Assembly: GCA_017465845.1 (NCBI GenBank)
Contig: JAFTVH010000148.1
Span: 1 to 64,000 of the forward strand
DNA from: Lachnospiraceae bacterium
GTDB taxonomy: Bacteria; Bacillota; Clostridia; Lachnospirales; Lachnospiraceae
Reading direction: 5' to 3'
Length of the DNA stretch: 64,000 bases
Shown: one piece after another, positions 3,289-40,528 of the stretch
Layout of the letters: each line of letters starts with the position of its first letter
Numbering within the stretch: the first letter of the stretch is position 1
Made by a program: the position numbers and the translations under genes
Notes under the pieces: model-generated
What the model was told of the DNA's origin: nothing
Seen by the model: the letters and a program-made list of their open reading frames with translations, nothing else
Databases searched by the model: none

Positions 3289-4386
3289 ATGCAGTCTATT
3301 ATCATCGGTCCCAATCAGGCGGGCCAGCGGTTTGACAAATTCCTTCATAAATATATGCCTCAGGCGCAGACCAGCTTTCTTTATAAAATGCTTCGTAAAA
3401 AGAATATTACTCTGAATGGCAAGAAAGCGGAAGGAAAAGAACTATTGCAGGAAGGGGATGAAGTGAAGATTTTCTTTGCCGATGAGACCCTTCAAAAGTT
3501 TACCGGCTCTATTATGAAAAATACACATGTACAAAATGCATCCGTGCGAGATCAGTCTGCTGCGCAAAATCCTGCTGTTTCAAATGCAATCAATCAGTAC
3601 AGGAATGCCTATAAGCGCCTGAAGGGGATAAAAATCATCTATGAGGATGCACACGTATTGATCCTTGATAAGCCCTCAGGTATTCTGACACAGAAAGCAA
3701 GCGACAGCGACCTTAGCCTGAATGAGTGGATGATCGGCTATCTGCTCGCTTCCGGCAGCATTACAGGCGAAGAACTACATTCGTTCAAACCCTCTGTCTG
3801 CAACCGCCTGGACCGCAATACAAGCGGGCTTGTGCTGTGCGGTAAGTCTCTGGCCGGAAGTCAGGCCTTATCGCGCTTGATTCACGACCGCCAGGTCAGG
3901 AAATTTTACCGCACCATTGTTAATGGTTCTGTTGCAAAAGAGGCACAGATAGACGGCTATCTGATTAAGAATGAAAAAAATAACAAAGTGCAGATTTTCT
4001 CTGCATCCGACGTACGTTTAAGTCAATATCCTGATGCAGACAGAATCAAAACAGGATATTCTCCGCTGGGTCATGGTACTCATCCGGAAGCAGGTATTCT
4101 TACTTATCTTGAAGTGGAACTGATCACCGGTAAGACACACCAGATACGTGCTCATCTGGGCGCAATCGGTCATTCTCTGATTGGGGACTATAAATACGGA
4201 AAACGGAACGTGAATGATATTTTCAAAGAAAGATATGGGCTATCTGCCCAACTGCTTCATGCGTATCGGTTGGAATTTCCGGAGACAGAGGGTGCTCTTG
4301 GTGGCTTAAGCAAGAAAGTTATTACGGCCCCTCTTCCAGGTCAGTTTTCAAAGATACTGATCGACTTATCATTGGAGGAATCATAA
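3289..4386 (+). CDS. RluA family 23S rRNA pseudouridine synthase with S4 domain
   Basis: A 365-residue protein converting uridine to pseudouridine in RNA, probably large-subunit rRNA. The N-terminal 60 residues form an S4 RNA-binding domain (GQRFDKFLHKYMP). The catalytic domain follows a linker of about 50 residues and carries the catalytic Asp in NRLDRNTSGLVLCGK, where Asn replaces the more common His of HRLDxxTSG. A later GKTHQIRAHL motif is typical of the RluA fold. It resembles the RluC branch, but the specific target uridine is not known. The stop codon overlaps the start of recU. A second family member, probably RluD, is encoded at 41327-42238. Confidence 0.9.
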   Translation: MQSIIIGPNQAGQRFDKFLHKYMPQAQTSFLYKMLRKKNITLNGKKAEGKELLQEGDEVKIFFADETLQKFTGSIMKNTHVQNASVRDQSAAQNPAVSNAINQYRNAYKRLKGIKIIYEDAHVLILDKPSGILTQKASDSDLSLNEWMIGYLLASGSITGEELHSFKPSVCNRLDRNTSGLVLCGKSLAGSQALSRLIHDRQVRKFYRTIVNGSVAKEAQIDGYLIKNEKNNKVQIFSASDVRLSQYPDADRIKTGYSPLGHGTHPEAGILTYLEVELITGKTHQIRAHLGAIGHSLIGDYKYGKRNVNDIFKERYGLSAQLLHAYRLEFPETEGALGGLSKKVITAPLPGQFSKILIDLSLEES

Positions 4387-4919
4387 TGGCTACCTGGAAT
4401 TCACGCGGACTGAGAGGTTCCACCCTGGAAGATATGATCAACCGTACCAACGAAAAATATGCAGAAAACGGTCTTGCTTTGATTCAAAAAGTTCCTACAC
4501 CCATAACACCTGTAAAAATGGACAAGGAGCACCGGCATATCACGCTTGCCTATTTTGAGCAGAAGAGTACTGTAGACTATATCGGAGCCGTGCAAGGTCT
4601 TCCTGTATGCTTTGATGCAAAAGAATGTGCTTCCGATACCTTTGCCCTTCAGAATATCCATGAACATCAGGTGGATTTCATGGGCAAATTTGAGAAGCAG
4701 GGCGGAATTGCTTTTTTTCTGATATTTTATACTCATAAGGATGTGCTCTATTATCTGCCGTATGAAATGTTGCGATTTTTCTGGGACCGGGCCAAAGAGG
4801 GCGGAAGGAAAAGTTTTCGGTATGAGGAACTGAATCCGGAGTATGTGCTTCCCAAAAAGCATGGGGTACTTGTTCCTTATCTGGATATGCTGCAGAAAGA
4901 CCTGGACGATAGGGGGTAG
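4386..4919 (+). CDS. recU: RecU Holliday junction resolvase
   Basis: The 177-residue product matches RecU, the Gram-positive endonuclease that cuts four-way DNA junctions during recombination repair and chromosome segregation. Recognisable elements are the NRTNEKYAENGLALIQKVPTP start, the metal-binding core around DYIGAVQGLPVCFDAKE (acidic residues plus the FDAK lysine), and a HQVDFM motif. The ATG shares its A with the last base of the rluA stop codon, so translation is probably coupled. Here recU sits with rluA rather than with a penicillin-binding protein gene, its usual neighbour in Bacillus. A giant palindrome starts 2 bases after the stop. Confidence 0.92.
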   Translation: MATWNSRGLRGSTLEDMINRTNEKYAENGLALIQKVPTPITPVKMDKEHRHITLAYFEQKSTVDYIGAVQGLPVCFDAKECASDTFALQNIHEHQVDFMGKFEKQGGIAFFLIFYTHKDVLYYLPYEMLRFFWDRAKEGGRKSFRYEELNPEYVLPKKHGVLVPYLDMLQKDLDDRG

Positions 4920-4920
4920 G

Positions 4921-5122
4921 ATTGTTGCAATTCACAGTGTGTGACGCAAAGGGCCGCTGCCGAGCACCGGGGATGCAAATTCAGACACGCTTTCGCTCCG
5001 TTAAAAACGCAGCGGTACTAGGGCTCGAAAGGACCGAGCCCAAGGACCGGCGTTTTTATAGGGTCTGAATTTACATCCCCGGTGTTCGGCAGCTACTTTA
5101 CGACAGACTGTGAATGTAACAA
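4921..5122. repeat. Giant imperfect palindrome A (about 200 bp) just after recU
   Basis: Almost the whole interval folds on itself. The left arm 4921-4986 (ATTGTTGCAATTCACAG to AAATTCAGAC) pairs with the right arm 5062-5122, with only scattered mismatches and two short gaps. Inside, AAAAACGC at 5003-5010 pairs with GCGTTTTT near 5050, and GGGCTCG at 5020-5026 pairs with CGAGCCC at 5035-5041, leaving a loop of a few bases. No open frame of interest lies in it. The outer arm carries TGACGCAAAGGGCCGC, which is also found in variant form at the end of the palindrome at 38522-38796. It could act as a 3' hairpin on recU mRNA, a terminator or a non-autonomous mobile repeat. Confidence 0.85.
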
Positions 5123-5200
5123 TTATAAGCTTAAAGTTTCTAGCATAATGAATAGTGAATGTTTTCAAAATAAAATTCGAAATAAAATGAGAGAATTGGC

Positions 5201-37682: not shown

Positions 37683-38345
37683 TTATTCCTCCGTATCAAT
37701 ATAACTTACTTTCATGATTCCTTCCAGCTGCTCCAGCATATGAATCGCTTCGAGAGGAATCTGCTGGTCAGTTTCCAGTACCATAACAGCAAATCCACCT
37801 CTTTTGTCACGATACAAATTCATAGTTGCAATATTCACGTTTCTTTTAGACAAAGATGTAGTTACCTGTGCCACATATCCCGGCTGATCCTGATTATAGA
37901 CAATTAAAGTAGGCTTTTCTGCAGAGAACACCACAGCGACACCATCCAACTTATGAATCATTATTCGACCGCCGCCGATCGAAGCAGCCTGAATCTCCAA
38001 CTGTTTACCATGCTTTCCCGTCAACTTCAGTACTGCCGTATTAGGATGCGCATCTTTCAAAGTTTTATTAGTAAATGAAAAAGCCAATCCATTCTTCTTT
38101 GCCAATTCAAAACTCTGCGGAATCCTGATATCATCCGGTGCCATCCCCAAAAGCCCGGCAATCAACGCCTTATCTGTACCATGCCCCACACCTGTAGTTG
38201 CAAATGACCCATGCAGCACAATATCCACCTTCACAGGCTCATCCTCCAAAAGCCTAGACGCCACATACCCAATCCTCACAGCCCCCGCCGTATGGGAACT
38301 GCTGGGTCCAACCATCACAGGCCCCAAAATATCAAACAAATTCAT
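37683..38345 (-). CDS. sdaAB: L-serine dehydratase, iron-sulfur type, beta subunit
   Basis: The 220-residue beta subunit starts MNLFDILGPVMVGPSSSHTA, the typical beta-subunit signature. It has a C-terminal ACT domain (about 148-220, LIVYNQDQPGYVAQVTTSL) that probably senses serine. A start 6 bases upstream (38351) is possible, but the GGATGG site fits the ATG at 38345 better. Together with sdaAA it forms the enzyme; the CstA transporter gene lies upstream. Confidence 0.92.
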   Translation of the reverse strand: MNLFDILGPVMVGPSSSHTAGAVRIGYVASRLLEDEPVKVDIVLHGSFATTGVGHGTDKALIAGLLGMAPDDIRIPQSFELAKKNGLAFSFTNKTLKDAHPNTAVLKLTGKHGKQLEIQAASIGGGRIMIHKLDGVAVVFSAEKPTLIVYNQDQPGYVAQVTTSLSKRNVNIATMNLYRDKRGGFAVMVLETDQQIPLEAIHMLEQLEGIMKVSYIDTEE

Positions 38346-38521
38346 AATCATTCCATCCCTTCAAAGTATATCTCTACCTTCCACTATTTTACTATATCTC
38401 CTCATTTTATACAACCCATACCTTATCAAATTCAATACATACACAATTTACGCTTAAATTCCTATTTTATCACCCACGCTGCCAAATCTTAGCCCAATAC
38501 TAAGATTGCTCATAAGCTTTC

Positions 38522-38796
38522 CTACTAAAGTTTGACGCAAAGCAGCACATATGGAGCTGACTTTGTCGGTTCTCATGTGTCACCACAGCGACATTAGACA
38601 TACTTACAGCCGACTATTTTGACTTTCATCCTCAAAACACAACCTGTCTGATGCGCAAAGCGCTGAGTTTTGTGTTTTGAGGATGGCCTTTTGTCAAAAT
38701 AGCCGGCTGTTAGAATGTCTTATGTCACTGTGATTGCACATGAGTGCCGATAAAGCCAGTCCCATATGTGCGTCCCTTTGCATCAATCTTTAGCAG
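38522..38796. repeat. Giant imperfect palindrome B (about 275 bp) just after cstA
   Basis: The whole interval folds into one long stem. CTACTAAAG...TGACGCAAAG at the left end pairs with CTTTGCATC...CTTTAGCAG at the right. Inside, CACATATGG, the CTGACTTTGTCGG region, CTCATGTG, GACATTAGACAT, ACAGCCGACTATTTTGAC and CATCCTCAAAACACAA all find partners with scattered mismatches. The tip has GCGCAAAGCGC. It starts 8 bases after the cstA stop codon. The outer end, read from cstA, is TGATGCAAAGGGACGC, close to TGACGCAAAGGGCCGC of the palindrome at 4921-5122. No gene lies in it; the rest of this gap (38346-38521) holds only a short hairpin (38485-38507) and the A/T-rich upstream of sdaAB. Confidence 0.87.
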
Positions 38797-38803
38797 TCCA
38801 ACC

Positions 38804-40528
38804 TTATGCAGCCTTCTTAGCCTTATTAGCTTTCTCTGCTGCAATCAGAACCTTACCGCCTTCGATTACCAGAATGATAGCCAGAACAACGATAGGAACA
38901 ATGATCACACACTGCAGACCTTCTTTGTAGATAGCACCTGTGCCGCCAATCAGCTTCAGAACATTATTCTTAAAGCTCAGTACCAGCGAAGAAACAGTAG
39001 CAACCAGCATGAAGATCATAGGGAAATACAGCATCTTGTTGTTTTTACCCTTCTTAGCGAGATATACTGCGATAGCCAGGAAAGCAGGTACAGCAACCAG
39101 CTGGTTACAAGCACCGAACAGAGGCCAAATGTTAGCATATCCTGCAAGACACAGAACAGCACCGCATACAGCAGTAACAATGGTTGATACATACATGTTG
39201 CTCAGGATGTTCTTGTTCTCACCCTTACCTGCAAACAGTTCCTGGAACATGAAACGTCCAAGTCTGGTAGCAGTATCAAGACTGGTCAGACAGAATGCTG
39301 ATACAGCCAGTGCGATAATGGTAAAGGTAGCACTTACAGCGCTCTCAGAGAATCCCATAACTTCAAAGAAGTTAGAGATAGAAGTTGCAAATACCAGTGT
39401 AGGAGAAGCCAGTCCTGTGGATCCGATTGCACCATCAGCAGACAGAACGCCGATAGCAATCAGAGAGATTACTGCCAGTACACATTCGATCAGCATTGCA
39501 CCATAACCGATAGGAAGTGCTTCTGCTTCGTTGTCCAACTGCTTGGAAGTAGTACCGGAACCAATCAGAGAGTGGAAACCGGATACAGCACCACACGCAA
39601 CAGTGATGAACAGTACAGGGAACAGATAATTACTTCCAACCTTGAAACCTACAAAAGCAGGAGTCTGGAAAGTAATAGCCGCAGGATTAGCAATACCTGC
39701 ACCGATAATACCAATAACAGCAGCACCAATCATGAAGTAAAGCAGGAAACTGCTCAGATAATCTCTGGGCTGTAACAGAATCCAAACAGGTGTTACAGAT
39801 GCAATAATTACGTATACGAATACAAATCCAAGCCAGAAATTCTTAGGCAGGTTAATCGGGCAAAGCAGACCGATCACTACACAGGCAGCCAACAGAATAA
39901 CACCAATGATTGTAGATACTAAAACATTAGCATTCTTTCTGTAAACAAAGAAACCAAATCCGATAGCCAGCGGAATGAACAGAATAGAAGCCATTGCTAC
40001 ACTACCATTGGAAGTACCTGCTACAGGTCCAGGGAAAATACCGGTTACACCTTCAGCAGTAATGGCAAAGGAACTTGCCACGATATCTGCAAAAGCTGCA
40101 ACTACTAGAATAAGTACAAGCCATGCAAATACGGTGAACAGAACTTTACATTTGTGTCCAATGTTCTCTTCAATAACTTCACCAAGAGATTTACCCTTGT
40201 GACGAATGGATACGAAGATAGAACCGAAGTCCTGAACAGCACCAAAGAAGATACCGCCTATAACGATCCATAAAAATACAGGAACCCAGCCGAAGAAAGC
40301 GGCCTGGATAGGTCCATTAATAGGACCGGCACCTGCGATAGATGAGAAATGATGACCCATCAGAACCGGAGCTTTAGACGGAACATAGTCAACACCGTCT
40401 TCCATCTCGTGAGCAGGTGTTACATTTTTGGGATCAATGCCCCACTGCTTTGCCAGCCATCTACCATATGTAAGGTAGGCACCGACAAAAATGGCGATTG
40501 CCAAAATGATTAATAAAATTGCATTCAC
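38804..40528 (-). CDS. cstA: CstA carbon starvation protein (peptide/pyruvate transporter family)
   Basis: A 574-residue membrane protein with about 16 hydrophobic segments. Conserved blocks include VMGHHFSSIAGAGPINGPI near residue 60, GGIFFGAVQDFGSIF and GSGTTSKQLDNE, all typical of CstA/BtsT proteins. Members import pyruvate or peptides under nutrient stress. Its start has AGGAGGG. The unknown 197-residue gene lies 84 bases upstream on the same strand and probably shares the transcript. A giant palindrome follows the stop. Confidence 0.93.
   Translation of the reverse strand: MNAILLIILAIAIFVGAYLTYGRWLAKQWGIDPKNVTPAHEMEDGVDYVPSKAPVLMGHHFSSIAGAGPINGPIQAAFFGWVPVFLWIVIGGIFFGAVQDFGSIFVSIRHKGKSLGEVIEENIGHKCKVLFTVFAWLVLILVVAAFADIVASSFAITAEGVTGIFPGPVAGTSNGSVAMASILFIPLAIGFGFFVYRKNANVLVSTIIGVILLAACVVIGLLCPINLPKNFWLGFVFVYVIIASVTPVWILLQPRDYLSSFLLYFMIGAAVIGIIGAGIANPAAITFQTPAFVGFKVGSNYLFPVLFITVACGAVSGFHSLIGSGTTSKQLDNEAEALPIGYGAMLIECVLAVISLIAIGVLSADGAIGSTGLASPTLVFATSISNFFEVMGFSESAVSATFTIIALAVSAFCLTSLDTATRLGRFMFQELFAGKGENKNILSNMYVSTIVTAVCGAVLCLAGYANIWPLFGACNQLVAVPAFLAIAVYLAKKGKNNKMLYFPMIFMLVATVSSLVLSFKNNVLKLIGGTGAIYKEGLQCVIIVPIVVLAIILVIEGGKVLIAAEKANKAKKAA

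Follow-up and report, generated by a model that had tools for sequence, protein, structure and literature searches.

Giant palindromes after cstA and recU belong to dispersed hairpin families with conserved cores and matched, variable arms in Lachnospiraceae

Two giant palindromes in the window

The window analysed here is a 64,000-nucleotide stretch (contig JAFTVH010000148.1, assembly GCA_017465845.1) of a Lachnospiraceae genome of 4.19 Mb in 201 contigs that is 85% complete, hereafter G000. On the minus strand of the window lie cstA (38,804–40,528; NF011590, E 7e-72) and, downstream of it, the gene for the L-serine ammonia-lyase beta subunit (37,683–38,351; TIGR00719, over its cut-off), with a giant palindrome between them. 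A second self-complementary element follows recU (4386–4919, plus strand; NF002581, E 2e-41). The gene names stand as families, with model matches for CstA, RecU, the serine ammonia-lyase beta subunit and HisZ, those of CstA and RecU being below their curated cut-offs. We refer to recU-like elements as type A and to cstA-like elements as type B.

A scan of the window for self-complementarity (at least 100 bases, E 1e-6, arms at most 200 apart) returned these two stretches only. The palindrome after cstA aligns with its own complement over 38,500–38,820 (74% over 333 columns, E 8e-47), and the minus strand of 38,510–38,810 (301 bases) folds at −172.3 kcal/mol, compared with a mean of −78.0 (s.d. 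4.9) for its shuffles (z = −19.2), none of 100 being as good. The preliminary description had reported a 275-bp stem at 38,522–38,796; the fold bears out the stem, but it is slightly longer than that, and its gene-side end falls within cstA, whose stop codon occupies 38,804–38,806. Rfam had no match in the window at the gathering score, and a single CRISPR-repeat match (E 1.5) lay below threshold. Nothing resembling a terminator or a promoter turned up in 38,350–38,850, the terminator scan allowing loops of 3–8 only.

Several parts can be recognised along the minus strand of this palindrome, which consists of a type B element plus mirrored flank. The conserved core (38,586–38,743), which other copies in the genome match at 72–83%, has its limits at about positions 58–215 of the query 38,515–38,800. 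The apical loop (38,641–38,672) reads AAAACTC, a small hairpin and TCAGACAGG; it resembles the loop pattern of three other genomes (G052, G134 and G144) and departs from the exact form of that pattern. Farther out are the basal motif TGATGCAAAGGGACGC (38,770–38,785), an exact and recurrent match, and, by alignment of the arms, its partner strand GCTGCTTTGCGTCAAA (38,531–38,546). Outermost, the distal arm (38,500–38,516) mirrors the last codons and the stop of cstA, with CTAAGAAGGCTGCATAAGG in the gene and CTAAGATTGCTCATAAGC in the mirror.

The type A element after recU (4921–5123, plus strand) has a self-complement E value of 7.5e-22 and a fold z of −12.6, and its conserved core (4979–5072) is matched by 22 other places of the genome. 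It carries the basal motif as TGACGCAAAGGGCCGC at 4942–4957, and within the window TGAYGCAAAGGGMCGC is exact at this place and, on the minus strand, at 38,770–38,785. A third match in the window has three mismatches, and three matches at that tolerance are about what chance gives. In the whole genome the motif was found with at most two mismatches at 14 places, versus 3 for a reversed control; by an automatic test, 6 of the 14 sit where a giant hairpin has its base, and the other 8 have no giant hairpin. Many G000 copies carry it as GCAAAGGG-CGC and partners. The preliminary description was right that both elements share the motif, which is common to both types and recurs at other giant hairpins of the genome. 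It had also placed the motif at the terminus, but the stem runs 31–35 bases farther outward, so that the motif is internal, and the idea of a unit boundary at the motif was abandoned because stems extend beyond it. Conserved ends around diverged cores, in the wording then used, are not supported either: within each type the core is kept and the arms vary, and over half of the motif places have no giant hairpin; the cores do differ from one type to the other. At L003:1484–1550 (contig C141 of G000) the basal motif lies in a small hairpin standing by itself, with no giant stem (z = −3.9); a similar site, L009:1490–1534, folds no better than its shuffles (z = −0.2).

Anatomy, dispersal and placement of the elements

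The elements measure about 140–390 bp, and their stems range from tens of pairs up to about 190. In both types a small variable hairpin is innermost at the apex (loops read by eye). Next to it stand, in type B, the conserved loop AAAACTC/CTCARACANG and, in type A, the core ACGCTYTCGCTCCGTGAAAAACG with its partner. Beyond the core come stem segments with conserved internal loops between them, several of which hold A.A mismatches or AAGGG. Farther outward follow a variable arm, the basal motif and a stem specific to the locus, which often extends as far as the adjacent gene. The core measures about 90 nt in type A and 150–200 nt in type B.

Some copies are incomplete. L263 (G052, contig C93) has a 3′ arm that apparently skips from one CCGCCCAC repeat to another, with the intervening stem missing, and the gap seems to be what a slippage deletion would leave. 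Two solo 5′ half-elements (L216:14797, at G052 C36:34797, and L134:19450, at G000 C31:19492) comprise the arm and core up to the apex and then unrelated sequence, and are either deletions or assembly jumps. The G000 one had been a candidate autonomous element and was discarded as a solo half.

As had been proposed, the hairpin elements form a dispersed family. Type B occurs at 8 other places in G000 (seven giant hairpins and, at L024, an apex only), and 21 of the 22 other type A places were folded. A third giant hairpin, on contig C84 (L009), has a loop that by eye resembles that of type B. Giant hairpins numbered 19 in 40 G000 stretches (785 kb), chosen partly on contigs with known copies, and 4 in the first 20 (400 kb, likewise from hit-bearing contigs); the same test found none in 59 cstA loci of other genomes (506 kb). 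Two palindromes were judged by eye to be unlike the core of either type, a giant hairpin of a further type at L247:12030–12292 (apex TTTGTACGTGTCAGGC...TGACGCGAACAAA) and a shorter G-rich palindrome at L249:6939–7084 (GGGGGAGG / CCTCCCCC).

The type A core pattern (23 positions, at most two mismatches) was detected in 53 of 138 same-genus genomes, with a maximum of 38 copies per genome, and its reversed control in 1 genome. Across the order, 15 of 392 genomes drawn carried it, 4 from the same genus, 10 from other genera of the family and 1 from another family. The last is a single two-mismatch hit, and such lone hits are background, because the reversed control hits 4 of the 392. The exact pattern had no match in viral_contigs. 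The type B loop pattern is looser, being found in 10 of the 138 genomes and its reversed control in about 20 (one or two each), so its hits count only with a hairpin or in multiple copies. They include 19 places in G052, 17 of them hairpin-bearing by the test used, one with a hairpin in G134 and one of two in G144; hits in six other genomes are without a hairpin.

Comparison of orthologous sites revealed differences in occupancy. Four G000 type A elements (L247:11549, L247:18819, L122 and L043) and the further-type element at L247:12030 are absent from G052, and a type B element of G052 is absent from G000, where the same gene is followed instead by an apparent ordinary intrinsic terminator (by eye). 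These relatives share about 80% identity, a distance at which insertion and deletion are not distinguishable. Two loci are occupied in both genomes, by elements of different type. In G112, a type A element of about 220 bp splits the spacer of two genes that we take to be argR and recN, between TAGTTT and TTTCTAC. The empty site is identical in G000 (C51) and G032 (C89), and the arms of the insertion are not present in it. The 3-base TTT, seen at argR–recN only, could equally be a target duplication or deletion microhomology. The two empty-site stretches (L302 and L303) are 100% identical over 1,734 bases in MAGs of different species, so that one of them is probably a contaminant.

The placement of elements directly after gene ends, also put forward earlier, holds in that they often immediately follow stop codons. 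Of eight type B elements in G000, seven follow a gene in sense, and for L018 no upstream gene could be called; at L016 an antisense ORF overlaps as well. The C84 variant, outside these eight, has an antisense left gene. In G052, 11 of the 13 type B elements with a callable left gene are sense (exceptions L181 and L184), and three have no left gene. Among 24 type A elements in G017, 12 have a sense left gene, and each of the four possible arrangements of neighbours is represented. By these counts, made from simple longest-ORF calls, type A lies between genes in either orientation, and type B is mostly sense, directly after stop codons.

The elements have two features of MITEs, namely interspersed copies of a common non-coding sequence and sites that are filled in one genome but vacant in another. 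Ordinary MITEs or transposon remnants, moved by a resident transposase and with arms that diverged with age, would account for the copy number, intergenic position and empty sites, and possibly for a TTT duplication at argR–recN. This account is nonetheless decidedly unlikely, since the arms diverge without loss of pairing and near-identical cores bear unrelated arms (see below), and TTT has its equal reading as deletion microhomology. Neither a firm target-site duplication nor active transposition was found at the sites compared.

Matched arms and mirrored gene ends

Co-variation of the arms was profiled in G017, which holds 38 type A cores; 20 stretches with 24 of them were fetched and 23 copies used, L342 being dropped for undetermined bases. 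In these, 95.7% of cells are paired, versus 80.9% when shuffled, and both partners are changed in 170 of 1186 pair cells, versus 47.1 in shuffles and 17–31 when slid. None of 500 shuffles reached 170, and 35 of the 52 pairs show change on both sides. Among 119 both-side-changed cells of the arms that form a new Watson-Crick pair, 72 are of transversion type and 47 of transition type; the arm mismatches are 17 G.U, 13 A.C and 32 others. Matched multi-base changes in both arms, as template switching would give, are also present: L336 (1454–1639) has a 6-nt insertion matched in both arms, and five copies (L331, L338, L341, L345 and L350) are 1 nt shorter on both sides. Matched insertions are not readily produced by stepwise compensation.

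The mismatches differ between genomes. One outer arm in G052 has a single mismatch in 90 bp, and G052 outer-arm mismatches (summed excluding the G134 element) are 11 G.T, 12 A.C and 8 others, the near equality of G.T and A.C indicating no RNA-type bias. In G000, the totals are 129 G.T versus 91 A.C with conserved loop positions included (132 and 97 with the G052 element L111, which is excluded), and this excess leaves room for RNA-level selection there. A tRNA control for G.U frequency gave G.U 4 and A.C 0 in 72 pairs, from six tRNAs, which are too few.

These patterns bear on whether the elements are a structured RNA family, a 3′ UTR hairpin or terminator that spread anciently and has been kept paired by stepwise compensatory mutation under RNA selection. 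The strong covariation in G017, the G.T excess in G000, the mostly sense position of type B directly after stops and the ordinary terminator (by eye) that stands where one G052 copy is missing from the orthologous locus would all fit such a family. We consider it unlikely, however, given the matched 6-nt insertion, the many transversion-type double changes with few intermediates, the balanced mismatches of the G052 outer arms, the lack of orientation preference of type A in G017, the mirrored coding ends described next and the lack of an Rfam match.

The palindromes run into neighbouring genes. From 41 elements in both orientations, 29 comparisons were usable, i.e., with an ORF of at least 90 codons ending within 35–40 bases of the stem base. 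The identity between the last 21 coding bases plus stop and the mirrored distal flank was 0.60, versus 0.43 for swapped partners (reached in 0 of 5000 permutations), in a set where some loci count twice, once per side, and some ORFs may be spurious. The end of cstA is among those mirrored. The mirrored codons at L247:12030–12292 are those of a gene with a conserved end in G052, which suggests that the gene side is the original. Stem extension copied from one flank, another expectation of template switching, is thus supported statistically and, at this locus, by eye. In G134, a palindrome extends all the way between two facing stop codons, with a terminator-like hairpin in each arm (by eye).

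Near-identical cores can carry unrelated outer arms. The 5′ core halves of L260 and L263 in G052 are identical at 98 of 100 positions and the sequences outside at 24 of 60, where the gapped identity of 0.42 equals the shuffled mean of 0.42 (17 elements parsed). In three other G052 elements the inner stems are identical, the middle parts 0.50–0.68 identical (shuffled mean 0.46) and the outer arms 0.40–0.51. Sixteen chosen outer arms have a GC content of 0.50–0.65, versus 0.454 in the G052 sample and 0.435 in the G000 sample. In G052 (75% complete; 30 of 30 places scored) the outer arms of L173 matched nothing else at E 0.01, and the L173 element had no match in phages or plasmids; on these searches, the idea that arms were captured from phages, plasmids or the host was rejected. 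A joined query of the 16 chosen arms returned their own elements and one weak hit (E 8e-4) in G161, and is itself weak, because three candidate places per genome were scored.

A mobile core could acquire new arms at each insertion, with fold-back synthesis at the target, or untemplated and then self-copied synthesis, making a near-perfect palindrome each time. The pairing of near-identical cores with outer arms that are unrelated, the unmatched arms of L173 and the mirroring of native gene ends by distal arms fit this account; it seems improbable, as the arms of related G017 copies are homologous, those at argR–recN do not derive from the present empty site, and the basal motif, lying outside the variable arms, is unexplained by an outward copy. 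It is conceivable, if doubtful, that the elements represent a mobile bacterial palindrome of a new class, which would pass on only a small core, long, near-perfect arms unique to each copy arising by fold-back copying at or after insertion. Were the arms made per copy, a genome would hold dozens of unrelated hairpins with arms of at least 100 pairs, some mirroring host gene ends.

A proposed copying model, known systems and palindrome stability

Considering their dispersal, conserved cores, matched arm changes, mirrored gene ends and presence or absence between genomes, we think that the elements are probably a non-coding MITE-like repeat, and that template-switch copying keeps its arms matched and extends them into the flanks. 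We infer that the cores are MITE-like interspersed repeats and that the arms are kept matched by templated copying, most simply by strand switching in the hairpin. The conserved core with its fixed internal loops would sit at the apex of a very long hairpin forming in single-stranded DNA at replication; the polymerase could then switch strand and copy one arm from the other (quasipalindrome template switching), and mutations, insertions and whole arm segments would become mirrored. Copying beyond the base would mirror the end of a flanking gene into the other flank, so that the palindrome would creep outward.

The copying step explains the matched indels, the matched transversions and the mirrored gene ends. 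Copying alone does not account for the fixed mismatches or for the source of the GC-rich, unrelated G052 outer arms; template switching should erase conserved mismatches too, and therefore selection must be added, fixed mismatches presumably surviving since a copy without them ceases to spread or to function. Also against this model are the higher count of G.T than of A.C in G000, as RNA-level selection would give, and the absence of the argR–recN insertion arms from the empty site.

Most of the genomes are draft MAGs with contigs broken at hairpins, and assembly error could account for part of the structure. That the elements as such are an artefact of short-read MAGs is exceedingly improbable: many sampled G052 contigs end within elements, and the two solo half-elements and the 1,734-base stretch identical in two MAGs would fit it too, but same-core hairpins also lie inside long contigs (e.g., up to 371 kb in G017), and the elements differ in matched ways. 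The G052 contigs that end inside elements include L214, L217, L221, L222 and L230, and from such ends it is probable that the hairpins fragment short-read assembly.

NEMIS/Correia hairpin MITEs are intergenic, palindromic, non-coding and often transcribed with a neighbour, and both they and ERIC/RU are conserved along the whole unit, whereas here only the core and loops are conserved. ERIC/RU (for RU, see PMC2759123) resemble the present elements in being intergenic, palindromic and non-coding, and are often transcribed with a neighbour. Compared by description (PMC3116915, PMC8266576), REP/REPIN are likewise interspersed, non-autonomous extragenic hairpins in many copies per genome, unlike the elements here with their size of about 140–390 bp and their hypervariable matched arms. 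Very long perfect inverted repeats that involve coding sequence are also described for Nematomorpha mitochondria (PMC6649704); the palindromes in that account are mitochondrial and inside genes, whereas those here are dispersed and share a core. A full-text literature search brought up, among the matches listed, no description of a bacterial hairpin family of this kind.

The nearest published mechanism is the template switching by which RNA hairpins are created and maintained (Monttinen and Loytynoja 2022, PMC8794818). The hairpins described there share with ours simultaneous matched changes in both arms, stem extension and copying of one arm from the other; that account concerns rRNA genes with short perfect stems, in contrast to interspersed families with stems of up to about 190 pairs and mirrored coding ends. 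Quasipalindromes in E. coli, imperfect inverted repeats like those here, mutate by strand switching (PMC7202029), and are presented in that work as a mutational hotspot assay, unlike a repeat family.

The elements offer a natural record, in many copies, of apparent strand-switch copying, which bears on how pairing is kept while sequence changes, and they are an unusual, testable case of palindromes remaining matched. Bacterial genomes are not expected to maintain long palindromes stably, yet here dozens persist in a genome. Loss of SbcCD was considered as the reason for their survival and set aside for want of a clear link, SbcD being present in 10 of the 22 genomes with at least 5 type A cores and in 65 of the 116 others, many of all these genomes being incomplete. 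Over the 138 same-genus genomes, SbcD was found over its cut-off in 75, and some carriers of the elements, including G000, are among them.
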